Below are positions 803-43,644 of a DNA stretch of 64,000 nt, one piece after another. The notes below the pieces were generated by a model. That model was not told where the DNA came from. It worked only from the letters and a program-made list of their open reading frames with translations, and ran no database searches. Source of the DNA: Coprococcus phoceensis (GTDB lineage: Bacteria; Bacillota; Clostridia; Lachnospirales; Lachnospiraceae); NCBI RefSeq assembly GCF_900104635.1, contig NZ_FNWC01000007.1, positions 806,001 through 870,000 on the forward strand, read 5' to 3'. How positions within the stretch are numbered: the stretch's first letter is position 1; each line of letters opens with the position of its first letter. The translations under genes and the position numbers were made by a program.

Positions 803-885
803 GCAGGTGTGGCGGAATGGCAGACGCACAAGACTCAAAATCTTGCGGGGGCAACCTCGTGTGGGTTCAAGTCCCACCACCTGCA
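803..885 (+). tRNA. tRNA-Leu, anticodon CAA
   Basis: A class II tRNA folds cleanly. The acceptor arm GCAGGTG (803-809) pairs with CACCTGC (878-884) and base A885 is the discriminator. The anticodon stem CAAGA/TCTTG encloses loop CTCAAAA with anticodon CAA, reading UUG. A long variable arm follows, and the T arm GTGGG-TTCAAGT-CCCAC is perfect. CCA is not encoded. It has its own promoter upstream and a strong terminator just downstream, so it is a single-gene unit. An accessory signalling module begins only about 70 bases after it. Confidence 0.96.
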
Positions 886-957: not shown

Positions 958-1662
958 ATGTATCAGATTGGAATATGTGATGATGGAAAAAATACATGTG
1001 CTTTTATAGAAGATGTTGTTTTGAAGTATGGGAAAAAGAGAAATGTAAAGATGAATATCCAAGTCTGGAATTCCGGGGAAGAACTTTGTGCTTATTTAGA
1101 AACGGGAAAACAGTTGGATATTCTGTATTTGGATATCGAATTGTTTGAAGTGAGTGGAATCGATGCGGGGATATTTATCCGAAAGCAGATGGAAAACCAT
1201 ACGATGCAGATTATCTATATATCGGGGAAACAGTCGTATGCACAGCAGTTGTTTAAGGTGCAGCCGATGGATTTCCTTGTAAAGCCGATTGAGGAAGAAA
1301 AGATTGAAGAGACGCTTGCATTAGCACTAAAGATTGTCGGGCGAAACACAAAGCGCTTTGAATTCCAATTGGGTAAAGAGTATTATTATGTGTCTTATGG
1401 AGATATTCTTTGCTTTGTGAGTGATGGACGAAAAGTTAGATTGCTCACTACAAGCGGCGAAAAGGAATTTTACGGAAAGCTGAAAAATATTATCAAGGAA
1501 TTGCCGGAAGATTTTCTTGTAATTCATAAATCGTATGTGGTAAATAAGCAGCGTATCGCACGGTATACATATGAAACTGTGGAATTGGACAATGGGAGAG
1601 TACTGACGATCAGTCAGGCGCAGCGAAAACAGGTCAGAGAAAAATTGTTAAAGGAATTATAA
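958..1662 (+). CDS. AgrA-like response regulator, LytTR DNA-binding type
   Basis: A 234-residue two-domain regulator. Residues 1-125 are a receiver domain with the acidic pair D8-D9, phospho-acceptor D59 in LYLDIE, S89 and K109. Residues about 130-234 are a LytTR domain (HKSYVVNK segment), the DNA-binding fold of AgrA and ComE that binds paired direct repeats. ATG 958 has GAGGTGGG just upstream; the longer frame from 817 runs through the tRNA and is rejected. The partner kinase starts five bases after the stop. By analogy with agr it should receive phosphate from that kinase and activate the agrD-agrB operon at 3135. No clear promoter is visible between the tRNA terminator and this gene. Confidence 0.9.
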   Translation: MYQIGICDDGKNTCAFIEDVVLKYGKKRNVKMNIQVWNSGEELCAYLETGKQLDILYLDIELFEVSGIDAGIFIRKQMENHTMQIIYISGKQSYAQQLFKVQPMDFLVKPIEEEKIEETLALALKIVGRNTKRFEFQLGKEYYYVSYGDILCFVSDGRKVRLLTTSGEKEFYGKLKNIIKELPEDFLVIHKSYVVNKQRIARYTYETVELDNGRVLTISQAQRKQVREKLLKEL

Positions 1663-1666
1663 AAAT

Positions 1667-2914
1667 ATGATGGATATCATTGTGTGTGCGGGGTCGAATT
1701 TATTTCGAATGTATGTGACGTATCGATTTATCCGCATCTTTTTGGAAGAGACAAAGTTAAGCAGGGTGAAAGAAGTTGCATGCTATTTGCTCTTTTGGAT
1801 TGTGAATACGGCATTGTATTTATTGTTTCAACGTGTTTGGATAAATATTATGTGCAATCTAGTGGGCATTGCTTTGCTAGTAAGAATGTATACAAAAGTA
1901 TGGAAAGAGAATATTTTTGTGACAGTTTCAATTTATGTGGTTGGTATGATATGCGACGCTTTTGTTACATTTCTTTTCATACCATATAAAGACGGAAATA
2001 TGTATAATCAAGTGTATGGGGCAATCGGAATATTATTGATGTTTGTTTGTGAGTTGATTGCAGGAAGAATTGTATCCGGACAAAAAAACAGGACAAGAAC
2101 TTATCATTTATCTTTGATTTGTATACCATTATGCAGTATTTTATTGGTAACGATATTGATTTATACAAAAAGCAGCACTTATAGAGGGATTACTATTATA
2201 TGCTTGGGATTGTTCTTGATTAATTTTTTGATGTTTTATTTTTACAGCCTGTTTTTGAAATTGTCAGAAGAAAAGCATGAGGCAGAGCTATTGGAATATC
2301 AGATGATGGCATATCGGAATCAGATAAATGTAATGTTGGAGAGTGTAGAAAAAATGAAGATGTTTCGGCATGATATGAAACATCATTTGGCGGAACTGAG
2401 ATTTATGGCAGAGAGAAAGGATTTTTCGGAATTTCGGAGATATCTGAATGCTATGGAAGAATTTTTTGAGAAGCCGAGTGAGATTGTATCGTCCGGAAAT
2501 ATGGAAGTAGATAGTGTTCTGAACTATATGCTTCAGAAGGCAAAGAAAATGCAGTTGAATACAACTGTAAAAGTTGCAATACCGGAAGATATGAAACATT
2601 CCTTTGATTTGAATATCATCATTGGAAATTTGTTGCAAAATGCGATAGATGCAGCAGTGGAGACCGAAGAAAAATTCTTGGGTGTTGAGTTTTCTTTGAA
2701 AAATGGAATTCTTGTTTTGAAGATAGAAAATAGTTTTTTGTCAGAGAGAATAAGACAAGATAAATACGGCGATTTTCTTACAACAAAAAAAGATTCGGAG
2801 TCCCACGGTATCGGGTTAAAAAGTGTAAAACGAATGGTAGAAAAATATCATGGAGATATGAGTATAAAAGTACAGGATGCACATTTTTGTGTAAAATTGA
2901 TGTTGTACATATAA
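1667..2914 (+). CDS. AgrC-like sensor histidine kinase, GHKL family
   Basis: A 415-residue membrane kinase with about six hydrophobic segments in residues 1-198, a coiled-coil linker (about 199-230), the phospho-acceptor box FRHDMKHH with H235, an N box IIGNLLQNA near 317-325 and a G box SHGIGLKSV near 380. This is the arrangement of AgrC receptors, which sense a cyclic peptide through the membrane domain and phosphorylate a LytTR regulator. ATG at 1667 is followed by a second ATG at 1670; either may be used. It is co-transcribed with the response regulator before it, and a terminator follows the stop, separating receptor genes from peptide genes. The ligand is inferred to be the product of the AgrD-like gene at 3135. 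Confidence 0.9.
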   Translation: MMDIIVCAGSNLFRMYVTYRFIRIFLEETKLSRVKEVACYLLFWIVNTALYLLFQRVWINIMCNLVGIALLVRMYTKVWKENIFVTVSIYVVGMICDAFVTFLFIPYKDGNMYNQVYGAIGILLMFVCELIAGRIVSGQKNRTRTYHLSLICIPLCSILLVTILIYTKSSTYRGITIICLGLFLINFLMFYFYSLFLKLSEEKHEAELLEYQMMAYRNQINVMLESVEKMKMFRHDMKHHLAELRFMAERKDFSEFRRYLNAMEEFFEKPSEIVSSGNMEVDSVLNYMLQKAKKMQLNTTVKVAIPEDMKHSFDLNIIIGNLLQNAIDAAVETEEKFLGVEFSLKNGILVLKIENSFLSERIRQDKYGDFLTTKKDSESHGIGLKSVKRMVEKYHGDMSIKVQDAHFCVKLMLYI

Positions 2915-2925
2915 TAAGATGGATA

Positions 2926-2961
2926 AGACATGGACTTTTTGAGGTCTGTGTCTTTTGTTTT
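2926..2961 (+). terminator. Intrinsic terminator after sensor kinase
   Basis: Arms 2926-2935 and 2944-2953 form a 10-bp stem (two G-U pairs) with an eight-base loop, followed by TTTTGTTTT. It ends the regulator-kinase transcript before the peptide operon. Confidence 0.8.
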
Positions 2962-3030
2962 ACGGAAAACTATACTCATCCGAGCATCCCGTAACACATG
3001 CCTTCGGCGTGCGGACTTCATCCGACAAAG

Positions 3031-3066
3031 TATGAGTTATGACAAAAATCTATATGAATTATGACA
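3031..3066 (+). promoter_or_regulatory. Direct-repeat operator ahead of the agrD-agrB operon
   Basis: TATGAGTTATGACA at 3031-3044 recurs as TATGAATTATGACA at 3053-3066, 13 of 14 identical with a 22-base period, so both copies face the same side of the helix. LytTR regulators such as AgrA bind paired direct repeats of this spacing class just upstream of a weak promoter. That is the natural reading here, given the LytTR gene next door. Binding itself is inferred. Confidence 0.6.
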
Positions 3067-3071
3067 TGTTT

Positions 3072-3100
3072 CGGCACAGAGAGATTTTATGTGATATGAT
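3072..3100 (+). promoter_or_regulatory. Probable activator-dependent promoter of agrD operon
   Basis: TATGAT at 3095-3100 is a good -10 box. The -35 position around 3072-3077 does not match consensus, as expected of a promoter that needs an activator bound to the repeats ending at 3066. Confidence 0.45.
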
Positions 3101-3134
3101 GCACTTAGAAAAACAGAGAAGGGAGGAGATAGCA

Positions 3135-3287
3135 ATGCAGAAGAAAAAAAGAGCTTCGGAGAAAGTAAAAAAAGCAGTTGTCAAATTATCAAGAAAAGTT
3201 GCAGAAATGGAAGCAAATACAACATGTACGTTCACTTTTTATCAACCGAAAGAAGTTGAAAGTGTTAAGAAGTTGCGGAAGTTTTGA
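3135..3287 (+). CDS. agrD: AgrD-like cyclic autoinducer peptide precursor
   Basis: A 50-residue precursor. ATG 3135 has GGGAGGAG six bases upstream; a longer in-frame start at 3039 lies inside the operator region and is rejected. Residues 1-25 are Lys-rich and can form an amphipathic helix, followed by the core TTCTFTFYQPKE with single Cys31 and an acidic-to-basic tail. In AgrD family precursors AgrB cleaves after the core and the Cys side chain closes a thiolactone ring with the new C-terminus; the aromatic-QP(K/E) stretch resembles clostridial AgrD proteins. Its stop overlaps the AgrB start, so the two are translationally coupled. Exact ends of the mature peptide cannot be read from sequence. 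Confidence 0.8.
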   Translation: MQKKKRASEKVKKAVVKLSRKVAEMEANTTCTFTFYQPKEVESVKKLRKF

Positions 3288-3850
3288 GTTTGACAACATA
3301 TCTGACAGATTATTTAGCAGATGGTAAAAATATACCTGATAGTGAGCGTGAGGTTATAAGATATGGGGTAGAAGGTATTTTAAATAATCTGTTGGGGATT
3401 TTCATCACAGTAACTGTTGGTATCTTTTGTGATTGTGTATTTGAAAGTTGCGTGTTTTGGATTTCCTTTTGGACACTGCGAAAGCATGCAGGTGGATTTC
3501 ATGCGAAGACAAAATTTCGATGTCTGATGATGTCCGTAGTATTGTTGTTTGTTGCTTTCGAATTCCTATTGAAAGCAGGATGGATAATAGGTGTATATAC
3601 GTGGATTATGGTAATCGGAAGTGGGTGTATCTTTTGCCTTGCACCTGTAGGAACACATAATAAGCAGTTGGATGAAGAGGAGGTTCGTGTATATCGGAAA
3701 AGAACCAGAATGATTCTTAGTATACAATTGATATTGTATTTTCTGTCTTTGATTTTGGGTGGAGAGCAATTATGTAGGATATTGGCGGTAAATGTGTTGG
3801 TGGTTAGTTTTTCATTGATGTTAGGTGTGATTCTGAAAAGAAGAAATTAG
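3284..3850 (+). CDS. agrB: AgrB-like membrane cysteine protease
   Basis: A 188-residue membrane protein that processes the AgrD precursor. The catalytic pair appears in AGGFHAKTKFRC as H73 and C80, seven residues apart exactly as in Staphylococcus aureus AgrB (H77, C84). The conserved APVGTHNKQL segment follows near 122-131, and about five hydrophobic segments are visible. TTG at 3284 overlaps the agrD stop in the sequence TTGA; a second TTG lies at 3290. The neighbours (peptide before, LytTR/GHKL pair upstream) make the assignment secure. Confidence 0.92.
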   Translation: MSLTTYLTDYLADGKNIPDSEREVIRYGVEGILNNLLGIFITVTVGIFCDCVFESCVFWISFWTLRKHAGGFHAKTKFRCLMMSVVLLFVAFEFLLKAGWIIGVYTWIMVIGSGCIFCLAPVGTHNKQLDEEEVRVYRKRTRMILSIQLILYFLSLILGGEQLCRILAVNVLVVSFSLMLGVILKRRN

Positions 3851-3862
3851 GAGGAATATGTT

Positions 3863-4282
3863 ATGAAGAAAAAAGTATTGGCAGTATTGATGGTTATAGG
3901 TATTGGTTGTGCAGGTATCTCGGCTCAAGCGGCTGGGAACGTTTCGGATACAGCATTGCCGACAAAGAAAATAGAATTTGCTTATTCTAAAGCGGCACAG
4001 ACACCGTTACGGACAAAAGAAGATAAAACTTCTCATTATATTAAAAATAACTCGGGGTTCGATTTATGGGTGCGCTCTCTTAGTTCATCAAATGTGAATT
4101 GTACACTTAGAGATCATGCAATTGTAAAAGGTGGTGAATGGTTTATATACAATAAAGTTAAAGAAAATGGTTATTCCAGTTGTAAACTTGATATTACGAC
4201 CGCAAGAGCGGGTGTGTCAGGGACATTAAGAGGATTATGGAGTCCGGACAGTGTTGGAAACTATCCTGTGGCAAATCCATAG
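3863..4282 (+). CDS. Small secreted protein of unknown function, agr-linked
   Basis: A 139-residue protein with a clear Sec signal peptide (MKKK, hydrophobic core, cleavage near AQA-A at residues 23-24). The mature part of about 115 residues has two cysteines, C80 and C107, that could form a disulfide, and a C-terminal GVSGTLRGLWSPDSV stretch. The overall pattern (signal peptide, an SxY...W block, then a VSGxW-type ending) recalls the DUF2712 secreted proteins of Bacillus, but this is a loose resemblance. It sits 12 bases after agrB with an AGGAGG ribosome site and before a lipoprotein and ABC genes. Secretion under quorum control is inferred; a bacteriocin or matrix role is possible but unproven. 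Confidence 0.75.
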   Translation: MKKKVLAVLMVIGIGCAGISAQAAGNVSDTALPTKKIEFAYSKAAQTPLRTKEDKTSHYIKNNSGFDLWVRSLSSSNVNCTLRDHAIVKGGEWFIYNKVKENGYSSCKLDITTARAGVSGTLRGLWSPDSVGNYPVANP

Positions 4283-4298
4283 TATGAATGAAAAACAA

Positions 4299-4335
4299 TA
4301 AGAAGGGAAGGTCAGAAGAAACACTAACCTTCTTA
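4299..4335 (+). other. Hairpin between secreted-protein gene and lipoprotein gene
   Basis: TAAGAAGG (4299-4306) pairs with CCTTCTTA (4328-4335); no T tract follows. It lies where expression of the secreted protein could be uncoupled from the transport genes. A stronger hairpin is found at the same place in the second agr-type locus. Confidence 0.4.
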
Positions 4336-4369
4336 ATAATATAAGAGAGTTGGAGGTTGAGTATAAGGG

Positions 4370-5008
4370 ATGTTCCATAGAAATTATAGTTTTATTTTTT
4401 GTATTGCCTTAATTTTAATATCAATTACAGGATGTTCAAAAATATCAAAAGGGAAAGGTAAAACAATTGAACAAAAATATTATGTAAATCAAGAACGGGA
4501 ATTCCAACTGGGGGACATCGTGGAGAAGAAGGAGCCTCTTCAGGGAAATGAAGAGAATATTTCGATAAGATATACAGTAAATCAGGCGACTTTGTATAAT
4601 AATCCGACAGAAGCGAGTGTGCGGAAAGAAGAGATTATGCCAATTATTGAATATCCCAAAAGTGGAGTTTTGGTGTCGGTAGATGAGGCGATGAATAGTC
4701 CTATGTTGATTTTGGATGTGATGGTGACGAATGTAAATTCTGAAGATTGCAATATATCTATTTTTCAATTAGTTGAAAAAGGAAAAGACAATGAAGTTAT
4801 ATGGATTGGAAGTCCGTGTTATTATTCGGAAGGTAAAGATGTGGAAAGTCCTGAATATTATCATTTTCCGTTGCTTCCGGCACAGAGTGTAAACATGAAA
4901 ATTGGTTGGTATATTAATCCGGATGATTGTGATCTGGGGAAAATATATTTGACAGATAATTTAAATGGAGGAGAAGAATATACTTCTTATGTGAATTTGA
5001 AATTGTAA
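4370..5008 (+). CDS. Lipoprotein of the agr-linked ABC module
   Basis: A 212-residue protein with a lipoprotein signal: short N-terminus, hydrophobic core and lipobox ISITGC with C22. The mature part begins with a hydrophilic linker and a YYVNQEREFQLGD block resembling YFQVNETVEFGRD in the membrane-anchored protein at 7375-7992, so the two look like distant paralogues bracketing the ABC genes. No enzymatic motif is visible. Stops in frame immediately upstream make ATG 4370 the only start, with a GGAGG thirteen bases away. It should sit on the outer face of the membrane, perhaps as accessory or immunity factor for the transporter. Function unknown. Confidence 0.75.
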   Translation: MFHRNYSFIFCIALILISITGCSKISKGKGKTIEQKYYVNQEREFQLGDIVEKKEPLQGNEENISIRYTVNQATLYNNPTEASVRKEEIMPIIEYPKSGVLVSVDEAMNSPMLILDVMVTNVNSEDCNISIFQLVEKGKDNEVIWIGSPCYYSEGKDVESPEYYHFPLLPAQSVNMKIGWYINPDDCDLGKIYLTDNLNGGEEYTSYVNLKL

Positions 5009-5024
5009 AGTAGGGAGTGAGAAT

Positions 5025-5888
5025 ATGTGTTCAGTATTGAAATTAGAGCTTAAGAAAGCTTTCAAAAATAAATTTTTTTGGATATCTGTTGTTTTAGGGT
5101 GTCTTATTACCTTGTTGAGTTTTGAACATATGGTAAATATGTATTATGAGGGAATGTCTGCTATATCTGGTAATTCAACGGATATCATATACGATCCTCA
5201 TATAGGGATTAATACGGTGTTCAATTGCTGGATAGGAGGCGAACCATTTTCGCTAGGAAGTTCTATTTATTTCTTTGTATTTCCGTTGTTGATAGCATTG
5301 CCTTATGGCTGGTCATATAGTGAAGAAAGGAAATGCGGATATCGAAGAATGATGATCACAAAGACAGGAAAGAAAAAATATTATTGTGCAAAATATGTAG
5401 CAGTATTTTTATCGGGGGGAGTTGCAATGGTTCTTCCGCTGATTTTTAATTTTTGGATGACTTTACTGGTTGTTCCAGCTATTTTGCCTGATGTGACTAT
5501 GAATATGTTTTATGGTGTGTTTGGAGGCTCTTTTTTAGCTGAATTATATTATACAGTACCTTTTTTGTATGTGGCAATATATTTGTTTATAGACTTTGTA
5601 TACTGTGGTTTTTTGGTTTGTATTTGTATGGCAGTATCTGGAATTGTGCGACAAAAGTGGGGAGTCGTACTTATCCCGTTTTTGTTGTTGCTATTTGTAC
5701 ATGTGATTACAGATTATATTTATAGTGATCCATCTGTTGCATATAAGGAGCTTTCGCCATTATATTTTTTGCGAGGTGTAGAAGTTAGGTATTCTTTTTC
5801 AGGAAGTATTATTCTTTTGTTTGCGATTGGATTATTGGTGATTTCTCTAATTGGTATTATAAAGGAGTATCGGAATGAAATTTATTAA
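5025..5888 (+). CDS. ABC-2 type transporter permease
   Basis: A 287-residue membrane protein with about six hydrophobic segments, a first helix after a short basic N-terminus, and a large extracytoplasmic loop between the first two, as in ABC-2 type exporter permeases. AGGGAGTGAG precedes ATG 5025. It overlaps the next permease gene by 14 bases, so the two probably form a heterodimer with the ATPase at 6708. The substrate is not evident; the secreted protein or a toxic compound are candidates given the operon. Confidence 0.8.
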   Translation: MCSVLKLELKKAFKNKFFWISVVLGCLITLLSFEHMVNMYYEGMSAISGNSTDIIYDPHIGINTVFNCWIGGEPFSLGSSIYFFVFPLLIALPYGWSYSEERKCGYRRMMITKTGKKKYYCAKYVAVFLSGGVAMVLPLIFNFWMTLLVVPAILPDVTMNMFYGVFGGSFLAELYYTVPFLYVAIYLFIDFVYCGFLVCICMAVSGIVRQKWGVVLIPFLLLLFVHVITDYIYSDPSVAYKELSPLYFLRGVEVRYSFSGSIILLFAIGLLVISLIGIIKEYRNEIY

Positions 5889-6705
5889 AGTATTGTGGTT
5901 TGACTTGAAAAACGGATATTTTAAAGGAGTATCATGTTATATTTTTCCGTTATTTATTGCAATTATTGGTTTTTTTGAGTTGCATAGAAGAATTGCGATA
6001 TGGGGAACAGAAGTGGCATTAGGAGACTATTGGATGTATTTGTATGGCGGAATGAAAGAATATATACCGACTACAGGTAATCCGTTTCAATTTCCAACTA
6101 TGTGGATTGCTGTTTTTTTGTTTAGTTCGTTTGCTGTTCTAAATTATCCGATGAAAGATTTACAAAACATGGGAACACAGATTTTGGTACATGTTCAAGG
6201 ACGAACAAAATGGTGGATATCAAAATGTTTGTGGAATGTTTTATCTACCGTTTTGTATCATGGAATTATTTTATTGGTATTAGTGATTCTATGTATTTGT
6301 TTTCAAGAACCACTCTCGTTTGAAGCACATGCAGACAGTATTGCAACGATGTTTGGCTTGTGGGTATCAGAGTTTCGAGGGGGTGGAGTGATTCCAATCG
6401 CTGTGATTCTAACACCAGTGATATTGTCGATTGCAATTAATTTATTGCAGATGGTATTATTGCTTTTTACAAAACCTGTGTTCAGTTTTTTGGTAATATG
6501 TATTATGATGCTGTCTTCAGCTTATTTCTTATCCGATATAATGATAGGGAATTTCGCAATGCCAATTCGGTATGAATGGGCAATAGAAAATGGCGTTAGT
6601 TATCAAAAAGGATTACTGTTTTCGTTTGGAATTTTATTTATTGCATTCATATGTGGAATTATGAAATTTCGTAGATATGATATTTTGAATAAGGAGGAAG
6701 GCTAA
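5875..6705 (+). CDS. ABC-2 type transporter permease, second subunit
   Basis: A 276-residue membrane protein with about six hydrophobic segments and a hydrophilic first loop. AAAGGAG lies ahead of ATG 5875, inside the end of the preceding permease gene, and the ATPase begins three bases after the stop. It is clearly a second membrane subunit of the same transporter. Its sequence differs from the first permease, so the pair is likely an asymmetric dimer. Confidence 0.8.
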   Translation: MKFIKVLWFDLKNGYFKGVSCYIFPLFIAIIGFFELHRRIAIWGTEVALGDYWMYLYGGMKEYIPTTGNPFQFPTMWIAVFLFSSFAVLNYPMKDLQNMGTQILVHVQGRTKWWISKCLWNVLSTVLYHGIILLVLVILCICFQEPLSFEAHADSIATMFGLWVSEFRGGGVIPIAVILTPVILSIAINLLQMVLLLFTKPVFSFLVICIMMLSSAYFLSDIMIGNFAMPIRYEWAIENGVSYQKGLLFSFGILFIAFICGIMKFRRYDILNKEEG

Positions 6706-6707
6706 AA

Positions 6708-7355
6708 ATGAGAATGGAAGTGATAGAAGTATCAAAGGTAATTCGTAAACATACGGTGTTAGATCGAGTAAGCTGCTCTATGCACTCAGGGAAAATTTAT
6801 GGAATACAGGGCATTAACGGATCAGGGAAGACAATGTTGATGAGAGTGCTGATTGGATTAATTCATCCATCATCAGGAAAGGTATTGATAGATGGAAAAG
6901 AATTGGGAAAAGAGTTGGAATTTCCTAAAAGCATAGGGTTTTTGTTAGAAAATCCGACATTTTTAGATCGATATTCAGGATATCAAAATTTAAAGATGCT
7001 AGCATCTGTAAAGAAAATAATATCTGACGAAGAAATAAATAAAGTTCTGTGTTTGGTTGGTTTGGATGAAGAGGCGGCAAAAAAGAAATACCGAAAATAT
7101 TCATTAGGAATGAAACAACGTTTGGGAATTGCAGCAGCACTTATGGAAAAACCAGATATAGTGATATTGGATGAACCGACGAATGCCCTGGATACTTCTG
7201 GTGTGGAATTAGTAAAAGAAATTGTTCGAGGGGAGAAAAAAAGAGGTGCATTAGTTATCATTTCCTGCCATGATCTTGCGGTTTTGGAGGAATTGTCAGA
7301 TGAGATTATTAAATTGGAAAGCGGAAAAGTAATTGAACACATAGGTAGGGCTTAA
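6708..7355 (+). CDS. ABC transporter ATP-binding protein
   Basis: A 215-residue single-domain ATPase. Walker A is GINGSGKTM near residues 36-44, the signature loop reads YSLGMKQR near 126-133, Walker B with catalytic Glu is DIVILDEPTNALD, and the switch His is in SCHD. The size and signature match ATPases of ABC-2 exporters for peptides or antibiotics. It completes the transporter with the two permeases upstream. Confidence 0.9.
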   Translation: MRMEVIEVSKVIRKHTVLDRVSCSMHSGKIYGIQGINGSGKTMLMRVLIGLIHPSSGKVLIDGKELGKELEFPKSIGFLLENPTFLDRYSGYQNLKMLASVKKIISDEEINKVLCLVGLDEEAAKKKYRKYSLGMKQRLGIAAALMEKPDIVILDEPTNALDTSGVELVKEIVRGEKKRGALVIISCHDLAVLEELSDEIIKLESGKVIEHIGRA

Positions 7356-7374
7356 ATAAGGATGTGAATAATAG

Positions 7375-7992
7375 ATGATAAGTAAGAAAAAAATAGTGAT
7401 AGGTATAATGATATGTCTTTTGATAGGCTCGGGAATTCGGATTTATGCTTTGAATAAGAAGGCTGAGAGACAGAAAAAAGAATATTTTCAAGTAAATGAG
7501 ACAGTGGAGTTTGGTCGAGATTTTAACAATAGTTCGGATAGTATTATTGACGGCTATACTGTAAAAGTGTTAGGTGCTGAGCTTTTCTCAATGAAAGAAT
7601 TTTATAAGAACTATAATCTTGTTTCAGAAGATGAAGAATTGGCGGAAGACACAGCTGTAAAATATTATTATGTAGTGAAAGCGTTATTTTCAAACGAAGA
7701 TAATGAAGATGTGGAAAAAGTGGGAGTTAACTTGAGTGCCATGACATTGGTAGGGACTGATTATAGTGCTGTGGTTAATCAAATGTCGTATGAATTAATC
7801 AATCCGGATATGCCGAAAGGTTTGGGTTTTTCTCTTTTGCAAGGCACTTCTAGGGAAGTTCTTATACCTTATGCAATTATTCCTGATAATATAGCAGCAA
7901 ATGAAAAGAAGGCATATGAAACATTGAAGGAAAATCCACCAATGTTTCAAATAACTTCTTATCCGGTTAAAAAATTAATTGAGACAAAATGA
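7375..7992 (+). CDS. Membrane-anchored extracytoplasmic protein of the agr-linked ABC module
   Basis: A 205-residue protein with one N-terminal hydrophobic segment (about residues 6-26) and no lipobox, so probably a signal anchor. The outer domain begins YFQVNETVEFGRD, which matches in position and character the start of the lipoprotein at 4370, and later carries a YYVVKALFSNEDNED strand typical of immunoglobulin-like accessory domains. It is the last gene of the run. No family function is known to me. A role in sensing, immunity or transporter assembly is inferred from context only. Confidence 0.65.
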   Translation: MISKKKIVIGIMICLLIGSGIRIYALNKKAERQKKEYFQVNETVEFGRDFNNSSDSIIDGYTVKVLGAELFSMKEFYKNYNLVSEDEELAEDTAVKYYYVVKALFSNEDNEDVEKVGVNLSAMTLVGTDYSAVVNQMSYELINPDMPKGLGFSLLQGTSREVLIPYAIIPDNIAANEKKAYETLKENPPMFQITSYPVKKLIETK

Positions 7993-8044
7993 GGACAAAA
8001 GTGCCTTTTCTGATATAATTATAATGTTACTAGAAGCAATTGAG

Positions 8045-8093
8045 AACTCTCCCATTCATGTGCTATATGAATAGATATGAATGCGGGAGTTTT
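8045..8093 (+). terminator. Long hairpin with T tract ahead of the AAA-ATPase gene
   Basis: Arms 8045-8059 and 8077-8091 pair over 15 positions with two imperfect pairs, followed by TTTT. It can terminate the ABC operon. Its loop and inner stem resemble those of the hairpin at 9890-9938 on the other side of the next gene. Confidence 0.7.
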
Positions 8094-8179
8094 GTAAATA
8101 TAAAAATGTTTTATGGTATAGGCGCATCTGTTGAAATCTGTTATAATAAATCCAAAGTGACGACAAGGAGGTTCGTATT

Positions 8180-34763: not shown

Positions 34764-35477
34764 ATGAGAGATAAAGTATGGAAGATTGCAGTCTGTGATG
34801 ATGAGACTGTATTTTTAGAAAAGATACAACAGTTGGCAGCACAATATTATTCTGAAAGAAATATACAGGCATAAATCCATTGTTACGACAATACAGATGC
34901 TTTTTTGCAGAGCAATCTTGTGGAGTATGATTTGATTTTGCTGGATATGAATATGCAGGAGAAAAACGGGATTGAAGTGGCGAAAGAGTTGCGCAGCCAA
35001 AAGATAGAGACACCGATTATTTACATTTCCGCATATATAGAAATGGCGCCGTATGGATATGTAGTCAATGCATTCCGATATTTGCTAAAAAACGATTTGG
35101 AAGAGACATTTTGTTTTGCGATGGATGATGTGATGAAAGAATTAAAACATCATTTAGAAACAATAGAAGTACGGACAGAAAATGTGCAGATAGAGCTTCG
35201 GCTTTCTGATATTGTATTTGTGGAAAGCTATAAACGGTATGTGCTGATACATACGAAGAAGGACGAATATAAGCAATATGGCAAGATATCCGATATGGAA
35301 AAAATGCTTTGTCAAAAAGAATTTTTGCGGGTACACAAAAGTTATCTCGTCAATTTAGACCATGTGGTAAAAATCAAAAACCGGATACTCTTTTTGGACA
35401 ATGGAGAGGAAGTACCATGCAGCAAAGAGCGGTATTCAGAAATTGTACATCGGTATGTGATTTGGAGGGGATGTTAG
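34764..35477 (+). pseudogene. LytTR response regulator of the second agr-type module, nonsense mutation
   Basis: Across 238 codons the sequence reads as an AgrA-like regulator: KIAVCDDE at the start, phospho-acceptor D61 in LILLDMN, and a LytTR domain (HKSYLVNLDHVV) from about 130. Codon 37 is TAA (34872-34874) in the same frame, between NIQA and IHCYDNTD; a GAA-to-TAA change would explain it. Restart at TTG 34905 would make a protein lacking the acidic pocket (C-D-D-E), unable to be phosphorylated normally, though the DNA-binding half would survive. The sensor kinase follows at once. Confidence 0.88.
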
Positions 35478-35479
35478 TA

Positions 35480-36778
35480 TTGGACATATTTTTTGATTGT
35501 ATACTTCTTACAATAGAAATTATTGGACTTTTTATTATTGCGGATGTATTTTTTGAGAGAAAATTCAAAAGGATAAAGTCAATGCTATTTGTGATAGCAG
35601 GTTATGTCTTTTGTTTTCAGTTGCTCGGTCAATTTTTAAATTTGATTGGAACAACAACGATAAAATCTATAATAGTTGTGATTACTTTCTATTTTTTGAT
35701 TATTTTATTATATCAAGGGAGAAAGATAAGACAACTGTTTTTTGTCGCGATGTTTTATATTTTGTTATATACAATCGATTATCTTGTGATTGCGGGCAGT
35801 TTATTGTTTTTACAGATAGATATAAGTGTATTATATAACAGCCAATATGCATATGTTGTGGCGGCACTTTTGGCAAAAAGTATATTGCTTTATAGTTGTA
35901 TCATGTTTTCAAAAAAGATAGAAGCCAGTAGAAGACATGAAAAATTTTCTATTTTAGAATGGGGACAACTTTTAATTGTTCCGATTTGTATGATTTTGAA
36001 TTTGACGATTGTTGTGTATGATCTGATTCAAAATAATAATCTCACGTTTGTCCTATTTTTGGATATTGGATTATTGCTCTTAGGAACATTTATTTATGCA
36101 TATTTAGAGACAGAACTGGAAAAAAAGAAACAAGTGGAAATCCAAAATCTGATTCTCACCAAACAAATACAGGCAGAGGAAAAACAAGCTGAATTAGTGC
36201 GAAACCACTTACAAGAACAAAGGAAGTTGACCCACGATTTCCAAAACCATTTATATACCTTGCGAGGATTATTGCAAAACAAAAATCATACGGAAGAAGC
36301 TTTGGAATATATTCAGAAATTAACAGGGAAAAATGAATCAGGAATACAAATTGTCCATACAAAGAACGCAGTCATTGACGCATTATTGAACCAAAAGTAT
36401 GATGTCTGCAAAAGAGAACGGATTCCTATCTTCTTTGAAGTAAGCGATTTGCAGAAGCTTCATCTCAGTCAGGAAAAAATTGTCGTGATTTTATCGAATA
36501 TTTTAGATAACGCAATTGAGTCCTGCAGAAAGCAGAATACGGGGCGGTATATCAAAGTAAAGTTTTTGATGGATGATCTCGGAACGATTTTGTCAGTTCA
36601 AAATACAGCGAGTTTAAAGAAGTCCAGTAACTTAGAAACATTTACATCCACAAAGGAGAATCAGATACTTCATGGGTATGGTTTGAAAAATGCATTGCAT
36701 ACAGTGGAAGATAGTGGTGGAATGGGAGAGGTATCGTGTGAGAATGGTGTGTTTCAATTTACTGCTATTTGGAATTGA
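35480..36778 (+). CDS. AgrC-like sensor histidine kinase of the second module
   Basis: A 432-residue GHKL kinase with about six to seven hydrophobic segments (residues 1-210), a coiled coil, phospho-acceptor box LTHDFQNH with H252, N box LSNILDNAIES and G box LHGYGLKNA. TTG 35480 lies nine bases from GGAGGGG; ATG 35471 is nearer but leaves no spacing, so either is possible. Open from end to end, unlike its neighbours. With its regulator interrupted and no AgrD gene here, it is an orphan that might respond to another peptide or signal to another LytTR regulator. Confidence 0.85.
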   Translation: MDIFFDCILLTIEIIGLFIIADVFFERKFKRIKSMLFVIAGYVFCFQLLGQFLNLIGTTTIKSIIVVITFYFLIILLYQGRKIRQLFFVAMFYILLYTIDYLVIAGSLLFLQIDISVLYNSQYAYVVAALLAKSILLYSCIMFSKKIEASRRHEKFSILEWGQLLIVPICMILNLTIVVYDLIQNNNLTFVLFLDIGLLLLGTFIYAYLETELEKKKQVEIQNLILTKQIQAEEKQAELVRNHLQEQRKLTHDFQNHLYTLRGLLQNKNHTEEALEYIQKLTGKNESGIQIVHTKNAVIDALLNQKYDVCKRERIPIFFEVSDLQKLHLSQEKIVVILSNILDNAIESCRKQNTGRYIKVKFLMDDLGTILSVQNTASLKKSSNLETFTSTKENQILHGYGLKNALHTVEDSGGMGEVSCENGVFQFTAIWN

Positions 36779-36779
36779 G

Positions 36780-36816
36780 GTCGTTTGGGAACAAAAACTG
36801 TCGTTTGGGAACAAAA
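36780..36816 (+). promoter_or_regulatory. Direct-repeat element ahead of the second agrB
   Basis: GTCGTTTGGGAACAAAA occurs at 36780-36796 and again, identical, at 36800-36816 (20-base period). The CGTT-x-GG part partly fits the LytTR direct-repeat consensus. It sits between the kinase stop and the agrB remnant, the same place as the repeat in the first module, followed by TTGATA at 36820-36825 as a possible -35 box. Confidence 0.55.
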
Positions 36817-36870
36817 CACTTGATAAAAGTCAAAAAAATGTTATTCCAGTGTTACGAAGGAGAAGAACAT

Positions 36871-37155
36871 ATGCTTCTAAGAGTAACAGAAAGAATAGCA
36901 TTTTTTTTATATGATAAGAAAATAATACAGAAAGAGGATATAAGATGGTGTGTCTATTTATTTCAAAAGTGGATATTAAATACTGTAAGCTATACCATAT
37001 TATATTTTATCGGATGTTATATCGCTACGCCAGTACAAGTGATTTTGTATTTATTGAATTTTGAGGTTTTGCGGAGAAAAAGTGACGGTTATCATGCAAA
37101 AACACCTTTTAGATGTATCTTGTTATCAACCAGTATAGAAATTGTTGACGACTAA
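36871..37155 (+). pseudogene. AgrB remnant, C-terminal half missing
   Basis: ATG 36871 follows AAGGAGAAG. The 94 residues match the first half of AgrB: two early hydrophobic segments and the catalytic SDGYHAKTPFRC with H75 and C82. After LLSTS the sequence ends in IEIVDD and a stop, where normal AgrB continues for about 100 residues with three or four more membrane segments. No AgrD-like reading frame lies before it or in the 52 bases after it, so the deletion that cut agrB probably removed agrD as well. Not expected to process peptide. Confidence 0.82.
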
Positions 37156-37207
37156 AAATGAATATAAAATCAACAAGAGAAAGTCAAAATGTCAGGAGGG
37201 ACTGAAT

Positions 37208-37561
37208 ATGTTAAGAAACAAAAGAAAAAGAGTAGCAGCTTTGCTAGCTGGATGTATGGTAATTGGAAGTAGTATGAGTGTGTATGCAGGAACGGCAAGT
37301 GGATATGTTGGTAAGCAAAGAACACATTTGAATGTAACAGTCAGGCATGCTTATGCTTCCACCGGCGGTAACAATGCAAAGACTTCCATTGCAGCAAAAA
37401 GATATGTGACGGGTGGAAGTATGAATCAAATGGTTGCGATGCCGACCCAAACCGGAGCAAATGAACTGACTGTATATGCTCCAAATGGATGGGATATAGG
37501 TACTGCAACAAGTTTTCATACATATGAAGGCGCAACAAGTAATCTGACAGCTCATTCATAA
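37208..37561 (+). CDS. Small secreted protein of unknown function, second agr-type module
   Basis: A 117-residue protein with a basic N-terminus, hydrophobic core and likely cleavage after VYA at residue 27. The mature part of about 90 residues is rich in Thr, Ala, Gly and Asn, has no Cys, and contains TVYAPNGWDIG. AGGAGGG precedes ATG 37208. It holds the same place in its module as the secreted protein at 3863, but the sequences share little beyond size and signal peptide. No family recognised. The gene is still intact even though its exporter genes are broken. Confidence 0.75.
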   Translation: MLRNKRKRVAALLAGCMVIGSSMSVYAGTASGYVGKQRTHLNVTVRHAYASTGGNNAKTSIAAKRYVTGGSMNQMVAMPTQTGANELTVYAPNGWDIGTATSFHTYEGATSNLTAHS

Positions 37562-37580
37562 AAACTGTTTAATGACATGC

Positions 37581-37611
37581 GAGAAATAGAGTATTTTATA
37601 CTCTATTTCTC
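37581..37611 (+). other. Strong hairpin between secreted-protein gene and lipoprotein gene
   Basis: A perfect 13-bp stem, 37581-37593 with 37599-37611, loop TTTTA. There is no T tract after it, so it is better read as an mRNA-stability or processing hairpin than as a terminator. Confidence 0.65.
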
Positions 37612-37661
37612 GTGCAAGTGAAACAGATAAACTATTAATTTATGAGATTGGAGGAATGTTT

Positions 37662-38903
37662 ATGCGGAAACACAGATGGAAAATGTTATTGCTCTTACTA
37701 TTTTCAGTAACACTTATCGGCTGCAGCGAAAAAAAAGATGGTGAAAGTTCCAAATCAGAAAAATTCCAGTCTGATTACATTGACATTTCCGGGAGGGATA
37801 TAAAAGTGAACGGTGGATTTTTCAGTGCCATTCATGGAATGTCATATTTTACGGATTTTAAGACGAATACAGCCGTTCCAATCTGTAATAAACCGGATTG
37901 CCGCCATCTTTCCAATTATGAGGATGCAGAGACTGCCTGCAATGCCGCAAAAGGTTCCAACAATATATTTCCATATAAAGGGAAGCTATATGGAATGATG
38001 AGTGATGAAGATGGAACGAGGCTTGTTGTGTCAGAATTTGACGGAAGCAACCGGAAGGAAAAAGATTATTTTATCGATGCAGGCTGTGTCTTTCATGCGG
38101 GGGTTGTTGTCGGAGATGAATTATACTATTTTTATTCTGATATTTTGGATGCGGCAGAAGAAGAGAATATTCAGGATACAAAATACCAACGTCATTTTAA
38201 TGTGCTGAATTTGGATTCCATGAAACAGGAGGAGATTTTCACAGAAGAAGCCGATTTTGTGAACGTTCTTGGGGTAACAAAGGACTATTTGATTTATTCT
38301 CTGATAAATGGAGACACTCCATTGTTTTATAAATTTGAGTATCAAACAAAAAAATCAGAAGAGATTGTGCTGCATAATAGTGGGTATGAGCTGATATACT
38401 TTAGTCCTGACAAAAGCAGTTTTTACTATGCCGGAACGGAGAAAAACGAATTGGATACCATTTATCAATATCATCTTGATACGAACGAAAATGAAATATA
38501 TCTGAACCGGTCTGAACTGAAAGAGTTTGTTGGCGAAGAAACAGGCTATCTGTCACTGGATGGTATTTTAGAGGAAGGGGTTGTTTTCCGTTTGTCTGAT
38601 TATCCAAAGCAATGGATGTTCTTTAAAGAGAAAGAAAGCGGGGCAATCCGGGAGTTGTCTCTGCCGCAGAACCTTCCGGCGGAGGGGGCTGTACTGAGTA
38701 ACTTTATCTGCCAGACAGAAGAAGGAGTATATCTGAATTATTACACTATCGGCGAGACGGAAGGCGACTTGATTGAATGGTATGGATATATTCGCTGGGA
38801 GGATTTGTTGAGTGGAAAGAACGATGTGGAAGTTGTTTTGAAGCCAAGTGTCTCTTCAACGGGAAATTTAGTGGATAAGGATGGGAAGCTGATTGGGGAT
38901 TAG
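37662..38903 (+). CDS. Large lipoprotein of the second module, beta-propeller-like
   Basis: A 413-residue lipoprotein; lipobox TLIGC with C21. GGAGG lies seven bases ahead of ATG 37662, better than ATG 37656. The mature part has a CNKPDCRH motif followed by repeated short strands of the type GKLYGMM, DELYYFY and SSFYYAG, each about 40-50 residues apart, which suggests a beta-propeller of the DUF5050 sort common in Lachnospiraceae. Role unknown. It is open along its length and precedes a broken permease. Confidence 0.72.
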   Translation: MRKHRWKMLLLLLFSVTLIGCSEKKDGESSKSEKFQSDYIDISGRDIKVNGGFFSAIHGMSYFTDFKTNTAVPICNKPDCRHLSNYEDAETACNAAKGSNNIFPYKGKLYGMMSDEDGTRLVVSEFDGSNRKEKDYFIDAGCVFHAGVVVGDELYYFYSDILDAAEEENIQDTKYQRHFNVLNLDSMKQEEIFTEEADFVNVLGVTKDYLIYSLINGDTPLFYKFEYQTKKSEEIVLHNSGYELIYFSPDKSSFYYAGTEKNELDTIYQYHLDTNENEIYLNRSELKEFVGEETGYLSLDGILEEGVVFRLSDYPKQWMFFKEKESGAIRELSLPQNLPAEGAVLSNFICQTEEGVYLNYYTIGETEGDLIEWYGYIRWEDLLSGKNDVEVVLKPSVSSTGNLVDKDGKLIGD

Positions 38904-38918
38904 AAAGATGGAGGCAGT

Positions 38919-41146
38919 ATGGAATGTGTAAGGTATGAGTGGAAGAAGTTCATTGCATTTCGTTTCTTTTGGCTGCTGTGCGTGGTGGCGTTCCTGTTTA
39001 ATCTGTGGAATCTTTCTGAGCAGGCAAAGATGAGCTGGCCTCCGGCGGAGGCAGTAAAAGAGCTGTACGCGGATTTGAAACGACAGCCGGAGGAAGAGCG
39101 GGAACGTTGGCTTAAGGAGCTGAAGGAGAATAAAATATCATCATACACCGGCAACCCTTATGCGGAGGAGGAACTGTATAAAAAAGTTCTGCACGAGTAT
39201 GTGCAGGCTGGACAGTATGAATCTTATTTGGATGAGATTGAGCAAAAAAGCACAAATATGTCGAGTGCGATTTTCTCAGAAGAAAGTTCTTTTGCATATC
39301 GGAATGCACAGAAAACACCGGAAGCATTTGAAAAGCTGCATGGTTTAGAGTTGGCGGTGGATATTTCGGATGGTGTGATTTTTGCAGCACAGACAGAATT
39401 TACGGACGTCTGCATGGTTCTTTTGCTGACTGCAATGACATATTTTTTGGTGATTTATGAGAAAAAGAATCAGTTATACCGGCTTTTAAAATCTACATAT
39501 AAAGGACGGAAGTATGTAATTCGGGCAAAATTGCTGATTGCAGCCGGAATTACATGCTTTCTTGTCTTGTTTTTATATGGCGGAAATTACTTGTTTTCCA
39601 TGCATCAATATGGATTTGGGGATTTGGAAAGACCGGTTCAATCCGTGACTGCAATGTATGAAAGTCCATACATGCTTTCGGTTGGCGAATATTTGATGCT
39701 TTATCTGCTTTTAAAAATGTTTGTCTGTTATGTGATTGCACTGGCTATGATGTGGCTGGCGCAAAAGGCGGGCAGTTCTTCGGGTGCAGTTTTAGGAATT
39801 GGATTTATTGGGATTGGGGAGTATCTGCTCTGTCTGCTGCTGCCGTCTGTCTCTTATATGGACGTGCTGAAATATGTAAATCTTGCGCAGTATATCAAGG
39901 TATATCCACTGTTATCCCAATATCATAATTTGGACGTCTTCGGATATCCGGTCAACGCAATGCACATATTTTTGGCGCTTCTGCCAGTATGCCTGTTGCT
40001 GCTTTTGGCTGTCAACATCCGAAAATTTTCCCACTGCGACAAAGTAAAGGCGCGATGGAGAAGGAAGAAGCCGAAGAGCGTACCTGCATTTGTGACGGAT
40101 AAATTGTGTCTGCATGAGCTGTTTAAAAACCTGTTCACGAACAAAACAATATGGCTCTGTGCCGCTGTTCTATATGGCGCTGTTTTAGTTGGAAATGGCA
40201 TGAAGTTTTACAAAGATGTGGAGGAAGAGTACTACCAAATGTATGTGGCGAAACAGCAGGGGCACATTACGGAGGACAAGCTGAAATACTTTTCGGAAGA
40301 AAAGAAAAAATACGAGGAAATCATGGCGTTGACCCCGGAAAAATCGGGACTTTCGGAACAGGAGATTGCACAAAAACAGAATAATATCCGCTATCCATAT
40401 GCAGGTTTCAGGAGGGCTTATGCCCAGCTTCAATATGTGGTGGGCAACAATTCCATGCGCGGCGTCAATGAGCAGGAACTCGTATATGACACCGGGTATG
40501 AAAAGATGTTCGGCAGCAGCCTCGCAAGAAGCCGCCTGATTCTACTCAGCCTGTGTGTGTTTGTCGCCGTCTACAGCGCATCCTCGGCGCTTGGCATGGA
40601 ATATGACTTGAAAGTGATGAATTTGCTTCGGAGTACAAAGCGGGGACGGCTGCCGATTTTGACTACGAAGATAGGCACGGTATTCAAAATTACATTTTTG
40701 ATGGCAGTTTTGATTCACCTCCCTTTCATTTTGAAAATAGTGAAGTCGTATCCGATGGATAACTGGGGGGGGCGAAAGTGCGCTCCATGCCGTTCGCAGG
40801 AGAGTCAGTCTTAAACTGCACGATTGGGGAATATGTTTTTTTGCTGGCACTCTCCCAGTTTCTTTCGCTGTTTGTTATTGCACTGGCGGCTGTGGCGCTG
40901 TCTGCACTGTTAAAAGATACGATTTTGACAAATATTTCAGGGATTGTAATCTTTATAGGACCGCTTGTCATGGAATGGGGCGGGCTTTATAAAATACATT
41001 TTTGGAGCATGAACGCGCTGCTGGATGCGCATCAACTGTTACAGGGGCGGTGGGATATGATTGTGTTGCAGGTGCTGGTTTTTTGGATTTATCTCCCTGC
41101 TGCGAGTTGTTATATTCTCTATGAAATCTATGATAAAAGGAAGTGA
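38919..41146 (+). pseudogene. Large ABC transporter permease, frameshifted at a G8 tract
   Basis: The first frame (38919-40814) encodes an N-terminal membrane segment, a hydrophilic outer region (about residues 30-165), a block of about six hydrophobic segments, a second outer region and more membrane segments. At 40765-40772 a run of eight G shifts the frame and translation ends 14 codons on. The rest of the gene (GESVLNCTIGEYVF to DKRK) continues in another frame to 41146. One extra G, or two fewer, restores a single protein of about 740 residues. This may be true decay, reversible slippage or a base-calling error. The ATPase gene overlaps the end. Confidence 0.85.
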
Positions 41147-41151
41147 GACGG

Positions 41152-42029
41152 ATGAAATTAGTGATAAGAGGACTCAACAAAAACTATGGGGCAAAAGTTG
41201 CGTTGCAGGATTTCCATGCAGTATTTGAAAATGGAATTTATGGGATATTAGGTCCAAATGGAGCCGGGAAAAGTACATTGATGAATATATTGACGGATAA
41301 CCTGCTGCGTGATTCGGGGAGAATCCTGTGCAATGAAACAGAGATTACGAAGATGAAAGCACAGTATCGGAAAATCATGGGGTATAGCCGCAGCAGCAAC
41401 AATTATATGATTCTTTCACCGTAAATCATTTTATCAGCTACATGGGAACACTGCGCGGTATGGATAAAAAAGAAATCAGGAGGCGCATGGAGGAACTTCT
41501 TCCACTTTTGAATTTAAGCGAGGTGAGAAGAAAGAAGATAAAAGAACTGTCCGGCGGGATGAAACAGAGGGTTCTCCTTGTGCAGGCTCTTTTGGATGAT
41601 CCACAGATTCTGATTTTAGATGAGCCGACTGCCGGTTTGGATCCAAAGGAGCGTATCCGTATCCGAAACCTGATCTCGGATTTGAGCGGCGACAAAATTG
41701 TCCTGATTGCTACTCATGTGGTGTCTGACATTGAGTTTATCTCAAAAGAAATTCTTTTGATGAAAAACGGAAAGGTTGTGGACAAAGACTGCCCGGAGGC
41801 ATTGCAGAAAAAAATTGCTGGGAAAGTATTTGAAATCAGGATTTCACAGGATGAATTGAATCAGGTAAAACAAGAATTTGAAATCAGTAACTTATTTCGG
41901 ACGGACGGGGAGATTGTCGTGCGTGTTATCTCAGAGCAGCACCCGGAAAAATACCGGTGGACAGAAGTCAGCCCGACACTTGAAGACGTCTATCTGTATG
42001 AATTTGAGTGCCTGTGCAGGGATGCTTAA
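41152..42029 (+). pseudogene. ABC transporter ATPase, one-base deletion
   Basis: The N-terminal part has Walker A GPNGAGKST; the frame then breaks after IMGY at about 41386 and stops at 41424. In the next frame the sequence continues PQQQQLYDSFTVNH and on to LSGGMKQR, LILDEPTAGLD and ATHVVSD, ending at 42029. Relatives read GYMPQQ here, so the loss of one T in an ATG codon explains the break. A restart at ATG 41442 would make a protein without Walker A. About 292 residues if repaired. It is the partner of the permease upstream. Confidence 0.88.
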
Positions 42030-43641: not shown

Positions 43642-43644
43642 GTG

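Follow-up and report, generated by a model that had tools for sequence, protein, structure and literature searches.

What does an agr-type quorum-sensing circuit of a gut bacterium control? In gut Clostridia, the outputs of agr systems are often unclear. Here we consider a stretch of 64,000 nucleotides from Coprococcus phoceensis (contig NZ_FNWC01000007.1, positions 806,001 to 870,000; hereafter the window), in which agr genes are followed by a gene for a secreted protein of 139 amino acids, termed SEC, and by genes for a lipoprotein, a two-permease ATP-binding cassette (ABC) transporter and a membrane-anchored DUF5028 protein (Table 1). Because this candidate output gene appears to stand in the same operon as agrD and agrB, the question of the agr output becomes directly testable. 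In related genomes it is the SEC-ABC cassette that is conserved, rather than the combination of agr and cassette.

A preliminary description of the window had proposed ten consecutive plus-strand genes at this locus. All ten open reading frames (ORFs) are indeed present, intact and on the plus strand, and profile matches bear out the identities given to the regulator, kinase, AgrD, AgrB, lipoprotein, ATPase and DUF5028 protein. The AgrB residues H73 and C80 could be read directly in the TTG-started sequence; this start lies inside the agrD stop, so that the two genes overlap by 4 bp. With an AgrB that carries the catalytic His and Cys, an AgrD gene adjoining agrB, a GHKL kinase and a LytTR regulator, the locus has the set expected of an agr system. 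The regulator scores 56.5 bits against the NCBIfam model quorum_RR_AgrA, far under the equivalog cut-off of 400. Since an Rfam scan at gathering level gave tRNA alone and nothing else, we assume that there is no RNAIII.

Table 1. Features of the agr-SEC-ABC locus and of the second module (window coordinates)
Feature	Position	Strand	Evidence or remark
tRNA-Leu (CAA)	803..885	+	ARAGORN and Rfam; directly 5' of the locus
LytTR response regulator, AgrA-like	958..1662	+	Pfam Response_reg E 7.2e-11, LytTR E 3.1e-15
GHKL sensor kinase, AgrC-like	1667..2914	+	Pfam HATPase_c_5 E 2.5e-22; N-terminal half hydrophobic (by eye)
Terminator-like hairpin with T tract	2925..2954	+	3' of the kinase gene
Direct repeat TATGAGTTATGACA / TATGAATTATGACA	3031..3066	+	Starts 22 bp apart; candidate LytTR operator
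Promoter-like element TCGGCA-18-TATGAT	3071..3100	+	TG before -10; consensus match only
agrD, cyclic peptide precursor	3135..3287	+	TIGR04223 47.3 bits (cut-off 19)
agrB peptidase	3284..3850	+	TTG start; PF04647 126.7 bits (cut-off 23)
SEC, 139-amino-acid secreted protein	3863..4282	+	Signal peptide (by eye); DUF2712; C-terminal WSPDSVGNYPVANP
Hairpin between SEC and downstream genes	4299..4335	+	-11.7 kcal/mol, z -4.5 on 50 nt
Lipoprotein	4370..5008	+	DUF5027 88.3 bits; lipobox by eye
ABC-2 permease A	5025..5888	+	ABC2_membrane_2 22.9 bits, below cut-off 27.2; conserved in relatives
ABC-2-like permease B	5875..6705	+	Conserved in relatives; hhalign to permease A
ABC ATPase	6708..7355	+	ABC_tran 106.5 bits
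Membrane-anchored DUF5028 protein	7375..7992	+	Pfam DUF5028 34.7 bits (cut-off 29.9)
Terminator-like hairpin after the last gene	8043..8093	+	8036-8100 folds at -23.4 kcal/mol, z -5.3
Decayed second module	34764..42029	+	Regulator, kinase, agrB, secreted protein, lipoprotein, permease, ATPase

The locus looks like two transcription units, one for the regulator-kinase pair and one from agrD through the DUF5028 gene, because a hairpin with a T tract ends the former and because of the spacing of the genes. A single ten-gene operon was rejected on account of this hairpin. The stretch around it (2915-2970) folds at -17.1 kcal/mol (z -4.1), and the region holds five terminator-like sites against 2.8 ± 1.9 in shuffled sequences. 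Neighbouring genes from agrD to DUF5028 are separated by -14 to 19 bp; only behind SEC is the gap wider, at 87 bp. The hairpin after the last gene is not listed by a consensus terminator scan.

Between the kinase hairpin and agrD lies an operator-like direct repeat of 14 nt, of which 13 are identical; none of 500 shuffles contained one as good, and when up to three mismatches are allowed the pair occurs at one site in the 3.6-Mb genome (reversed control, none). LytTR operators are described as 9-bp repeats with a gap of mostly 12, sometimes 11 or 13 bp, located some 10 bp upstream of the -35 element (PMC6193735). A 9-bp core within the window repeat leaves a gap of 13 bp. In S. aureus, AgrA sites are likewise direct repeats, upstream of P2 and P3 (PMC4227749). 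Promoter-like matches occur in the region at chance frequency (33 found, 32.2 expected). Judged from this layout, the LytTR regulator probably binds the repeat, and the genes from agrD to DUF5028 are probably co-transcribed. The proposed wiring of the agr module to the SEC and ABC genes thus holds up in part: within its own genome the quorum link is well supported by the anatomy, as a complete AgrBD-AgrCA-type set stands directly upstream and spacing and hairpins suggest a single operon for SEC and its neighbours. The claim that the whole forms a conserved system is another matter, as only a minority of relatives have an AgrB within 6 kb of SEC.

Five AgrB matches were detected in all in this genome. 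Three of them mark further loci, L044 (G000:C7:986100-1006000), L045 and L046. AgrD-like ORFs were seen by eye at L044 and L045, a LanM-like match (E 3e-54) lies about 6.6 kb from the AgrB of L044, and the AgrB match of L046 contains one internal stop.

Conservation of the SEC-ABC cassette

A profile search based on A1, an alignment of 19 SEC homologues, detected SEC in 27 of 397 genomes of the family, own genome included. A collection of named genomes yielded 14 SEC loci, among them Amphibacillus, Natronobacillus, Ruminococcus bromii and an uncultured Dorea; this search used one motif pattern, so that members without the motif could not appear. The neighbourhoods were then scanned with profiles grown from the window proteins. 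Among the 31 loci whose downstream flank measures 4.5 kb or more, we found permease A 30 times, permease B 29 times, an ATPase 30 times (including the different, upstream ATPase of L032), DUF5028 28 times and a recognised DUF5027 protein 19 times. Because most loci had been found through SEC, the constancy of SEC itself cannot be used either way.

AgrB, the marker of the quorum module, occurs within 6 kb of SEC at 9 of 38 loci (8 of 30 among those with at least 5 kb upstream), and directly upstream on the same strand at four (L031, L032, L035 and L086). Chance would bring an AgrB this close in about 1.7% of places, if five AgrB per 3.6 Mb are typical of other genomes. A kinase lies near 12 and a regulator near 13 of 30 SEC loci. 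On a SEC tree, which has several long branches with uncertain placements, the 10 agr rows need seven changes versus the nine two-component rows without AgrB, three of which come from one locus; 23 unlabelled rows were not counted. As few as seven changes were reached by 402 of 500 label shuffles, and at least four are forced by well-supported branches. These findings do not support the notion of agr and cassette as one conserved system, and a fixed association of agr with the cassette was rejected, since AgrB is near so few of the loci and the tree requires no fewer changes than shuffled labels. From these two observations, the agr part looks like a switch that was repeatedly gained and lost in front of a constant cassette.

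These counts refer to loci rather than genomes, as L024/L031, L038/L090 and L023/L089 each share one genome; L019, L023, L029 and L030, which have duplicate contigs in the collection, were counted once. The SEC of L035 was added by hand from its PF10916 match, while L025 and SEC ORFs under 85-90 amino acids were left out of the neighbourhood counts, the hairpin test and the tree. G014:C62, from the family-wide SEC search, lies outside the neighbourhood set. L025 is itself rearranged (L025:6701-9126), with two DUF2712 fragments about 2 kb apart and lipoprotein, ATPase and DUF5028 genes between them, possibly through an assembly error or a rearrangement.

Several loci vary the plan. At L034 and L090, two SEC and two lipoprotein genes alternate ahead of one transporter. 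Lipoprotein and transporter genes without a recognised SEC are found at L105, L107 and L108, three DUF5028 loci; a SEC of another family is possible, and the family-wide SEC search gave no match at these sites. L108 is visible only until shortly past its DUF5028 gene, and L106, with ATPase and DUF5028 only at the end of its stretch, was not included in this count. Seven of the 12 DUF5028 matches are SEC loci already in the set and four others were examined, G018:C79 being left out. L105 keeps AgrB, regulator and kinase. At L105:9250-10134 an AgrD-like ORF was noticed by eye, in which the ring residue would be Ser (KSVVVGVYEPPVPE), not Cys.

The cassette is also borne by plasmids. Three mobilizable Lactococcus plasmids of 8.5-9 kb carry a SEC homologue, and in the two that were scanned gene by gene (L109 and L113) it is followed by the permeases, the ATPase and a weak DUF5028 match, the cassette being the main cargo. 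The Lactococcus SEC is distant, with 28% identity in tblastn (E 9e-5) and an E value of 6e-18 with the SEC profile. Collinsella and Vescimonas plasmids encode SEC, two permeases, ATPase and DUF5028, with no recognised DUF5027.

At three loci, class II lanthipeptide synthetase genes stand between the kinase and the DUF2712 gene (L020:5657-8806, L029:5734-8754 and L033:10186-13068). These LanM proteins are full length (960-1049 amino acids), with DUF4135 and LANC_like domains and the WCHG and CHG motifs, which serve the zinc site of LanM. The adjoining DUF2712 proteins look Sec-secreted.

SEC, its partner proteins and the hairpin behind its gene

The match of SEC to DUF2712 (PF10916) spans almost the entire profile and reaches 21.0 bits, which is 1 bit short of the cut-off (22). 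As PF10916 is carried by 22 of its 24 database homologues and 17 of the 19 A1 sequences match the family at E ≤ 1, we take SEC to be a diverged DUF2712 member. The motif G-x-W-S-P-D-S near the C-terminus is invariant in A1, and most of its sequences show, by eye, a basic N-terminus, a hydrophobic core and a cleavage-like site. An AlphaFold2 model (mean pLDDT, the predicted local distance difference test, 87) is confident and beta-rich over residues 31-139, with block means of 92-98, and predicts a small beta-sandwich. No function was assigned from this fold, because Foldseek returned no match at E ≤ 0.001 and a second structure search gave a list of middling Z scores. The structure of lactococcin 972 (Lcn972) is absent from the 50 structure rows shown for SEC, which excludes nothing. 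The Lactococcin_972 profile, which we take to be part of the searched libraries, matched neither SEC (Pfam and NCBIfam, E ≤ 0.1) nor any of the 19 A1 sequences (Pfam, E ≤ 1). Membership in the lactococcin 972 family was rejected, as SEC lacks a match to this profile and belongs with DUF2712 instead.

Since its signal peptide lets the Sec pathway export SEC, the two-permease transporter needs another job. Permease B has no Pfam match; the cassettes of relatives also contain matches to its profile, and it is distantly related to permease A (hhalign probability 94.3). The best NCBIfam match of the window ATPase is TIGR03740 (lantibiotic protection) with 175.8 bits, under the cut-off of 309.75 above which an ATPase would count as that of a LanFEG transporter. 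TIGR03740 is the top NCBIfam match, below cut-off, for all three ATPases tested (window, Lactococcus plasmid and Priestia plasmid). There is a distant relationship between the DUF5027 lipoprotein and the DUF5028 protein (hhalign probability 96.4). The model of the DUF5027 protein is similar in structure to the lipoprotein YjhA (Foldseek E 7e-4).

A stem behind the SEC stop codon beats all 40 shuffles in 25 of 42 SEC genes. At control junctions the same test, in which stems were given a simple score and compared with composition shuffles, succeeded for the lipoprotein in 0 of 30, permease A in 3 of 34, permease B in 5 of 35 and the ATPase in 3 of 42 cases; this contrast is partly one of sequence type, because the controls are largely coding (the genes abut) and the post-SEC stretch is mostly intergenic. 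Lactococcus plasmid L109 has the hairpin as well. Bacteriocin operons can use such hairpins to hold the product messenger in excess, and the post-SEC hairpin likely marks SEC as a high-yield product.

The decayed second module and other neighbours

According to the preliminary description, a second copy of the layout lies 30 kb away. The genes there form a decayed module whose secreted protein is a different one, and we noticed no agrD in the ORF lists. Its LytTR regulator has an in-frame stop at 34872-34874, its agrB is truncated by a stop at 37155, and permease and ATPase are split between frames; on these grounds an intact second copy at 34.8-42.0 kb was rejected. The secreted protein (37208-37561) has no Pfam match and eight database relatives, one in Faecalimonas mobilis, which are distinct from the 24 of SEC, and the lipoprotein has no DUF5027 match. 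Behind the secreted protein gene there is a perfect 15-bp stem (37580-37612), and before agrB a perfect 17-nt direct repeat with 20-bp spacing, as good in 0 of 500 shuffles. This suggests that the plan of agr, secreted protein, lipoprotein and ABC genes is also realised with another secreted protein, and that modules of this kind decay.

Directly 3' of the agrD-DUF5028 operon, an AAA-ATPase_like/PDDEXK_9 gene occupies 8180-9871. A relative of it also flanks the L030 cassette, on the opposite strand (L030:13283-15016, E 1e-84). When nine proteins of the locus (without AgrD) and that of the next gene were submitted to PADLOC, only the ABC ATPase matched, through its ATPase domain; anti-phage defence was rejected because this match was the sole one. 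Behind the second module, at 42378-45197, a gene for a solute-binding lipoprotein is followed by an ORF that starts like an ABC sugar permease (by eye) and continues into a weak HlyD-like match below cut-off. This has the look of a transport locus that was truncated or fused.

Function of the cassette and comparison with known systems

In the mechanism that we propose, AgrB would make a cyclic peptide from AgrD, and the regulator-kinase pair would sense it. The activated LytTR regulator would bind the repeat at 3031-3066 and switch on the operon agrD-agrB-SEC-lipoprotein-ABC-DUF5028, giving positive feedback and density-dependent production of SEC. After export by the Sec pathway and cleavage by signal peptidase, SEC would fold as a small beta-sandwich and most likely antagonise related bacteria in a bacteriocin-like manner, by acting on their envelope. 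The producer would be shielded by the DUF5027 lipoprotein, the DUF5028 protein and the ABC transporter with its two permeases, in a way similar to that in which NisI and LanFEG protect the producers of nisin-like peptides. The post-SEC hairpin would hold the SEC messenger above that of the immunity genes. We consider this reading of the cassette, a quorum-controlled bacteriocin-like protein with ABC immunity, about equally likely to be right or wrong. The bacteriocin comparison drawn in the preliminary description finds circumstantial support in the small plasmids, the post-SEC hairpin, the similarity of the ATPase and the cassettes without a recognised SEC.

A number of observations weigh against it. 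The window's own post-SEC hairpin is weak in the cassette-wide test (z 2.1, which does not exceed every one of the 40 shuffles), and the comparison across relatives is not clean, for the reason given above. LytTR-type repeats before the other agr-linked copies are mostly at chance: only at L033 (before the LanM gene), L023, L028, L032, L078 and L081 were at most 10 of 100 shuffles as good, in a test that left out L087-L090 and was separate from that of the window and the second module (500 shuffles). At L032, where SEC and AgrB are present and a different ATPase lies upstream, neither a permease nor DUF5028 was recognised. For the Lactococcus SEC, Pfam and NCBIfam gave nothing at E ≤ 0.01. Lactococcus IBB417, the carrier of pIBB417_PrSa_3 with the cassette, has no bacteriocin genes by BAGEL4, according to the available part of the paper (PMC9174673). 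In a pan-plasmidome screen with one lactococcal indicator, the part available names six inhibitory strains, not including UC063 and UC109 (PMC6458302), names that are also those of strains whose plasmids carry the cassette; the identity of UC109 is unsure, because it is assigned to subsp. cremoris in that paper and to subsp. lactis in the plasmid record. In B. subtilis, the main resistance determinant was LiaIH and not YydIJ, a postulated immunity transporter with a comparable position (PMC7026026). The terms DUF2712, DUF5027, DUF5028, PF10916, PF16430 and PF16431 were not found in the literature searched, which included few subscription papers. The structural matches of SEC, finally, are of the kind that a common beta-sandwich gives. 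SEC might instead be a non-lethal surface or matrix factor, for instance a beta-sandwich that binds glycans, the wall or the host, with the ABC transporter and the two extracytoplasmic proteins maintaining the envelope or aiding the folding and release of SEC at high density; we regard this as possible, though improbable.

There are two further explanations. The cassette could counter an antimicrobial from outside, as a resistance or envelope-stress module that here has come under agr control; SEC would be a decoy or sensor for the antimicrobial. The variable regulators would suit this reading (AgrB at a minority of loci, two-component systems without AgrB at others, LanM adjoining SEC in three), as would the cassettes without a recognised SEC; the post-SEC hairpin, which suggests that SEC is a high-yield product, speaks against it, and we judge it clearly unlikely. 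That the transporter exports or processes SEC, or a peptide cut from it, and is not an immunity device was hinted at by the earlier wording 'its own ABC transporter' and finds some backing in NCBIfam relatives of the ATPase that are named exporters (PmtC, L_ocin_972). However, Sec suffices, as most aligned SEC homologues have signal-peptide-like N-termini by eye, the ATPase has no peptidase domain by Pfam, and ABC loci without a recognised SEC exist, which makes an exporter very unlikely.

Returning to SEC as a bacteriocin-like antagonist, one may go further and propose, with somewhat less than even confidence, that DUF2712 represents an undescribed class of Sec-secreted beta-sandwich antibacterials with an immunity set of its own, made up of the two-permease ABC transporter, the DUF5028 anchor and often a DUF5027 lipoprotein. 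The set would be mobile across gut Lachnospiraceae and Oscillospiraceae, Bacillaceae, lactococcal plasmids and Collinsella, with interchangeable signal inputs, namely agr peptides, two-component systems alone and LanM-containing loci. Should SEC prove antibacterial, it would define a class of bacteriocins that BAGEL4 missed in one screened strain carrying a relative, as far as the available part of that report goes. Quorum control would then be a module set before, and lost from, a constant weapon-and-immunity set.

With staphylococcal agr the locus shares AgrB, AgrD, a GHKL kinase, a LytTR regulator and direct repeats upstream of a target promoter (PMC4227749). In the window, however, regulator and kinase come first and appear to form a separate unit, agrDB heads the effector operon, and no RNAIII was detected. 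CA_C0082 of Clostridium acetobutylicum, a LanM-like effector of Agr, likewise ties a LanM-family gene to an agr locus (PMC10301443). Its relatives measure 670-728 amino acids and are without the zinc site (PMC10301443), whereas the LanM proteins of L020, L029 and L033 are full length with WCHG and CHG, and there is no LanM among the ten window genes. In the yydFGHIJ locus of B. subtilis, the gene for a secreted antimicrobial is accompanied by genes for an ABC transporter with a postulated role in self-protection; unlike SEC, YydF is a modified peptide (PMC7026026). One ATPase, two ABC-2 permeases and a lipoprotein, with TIGR03740 as best ATPase match, also recall LanFEG/LanI, from which the window differs by the absence of a lanthipeptide gene among its ten genes and by an ATPase below the TIGR03740 cut-off. 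Lcn972 is Sec-secreted. Unlike its cluster, the cassette has a second permease, DUF5028 and often also DUF5027, and SEC is of the DUF2712 type. The 11-kb plasmid pBL1 carries lactococcin 972 together with genes that encode a putative ABC transporter for immunity (PMC4055356), an organisation that is paralleled by the small Lactococcus plasmids with the cassette as their main cargo.

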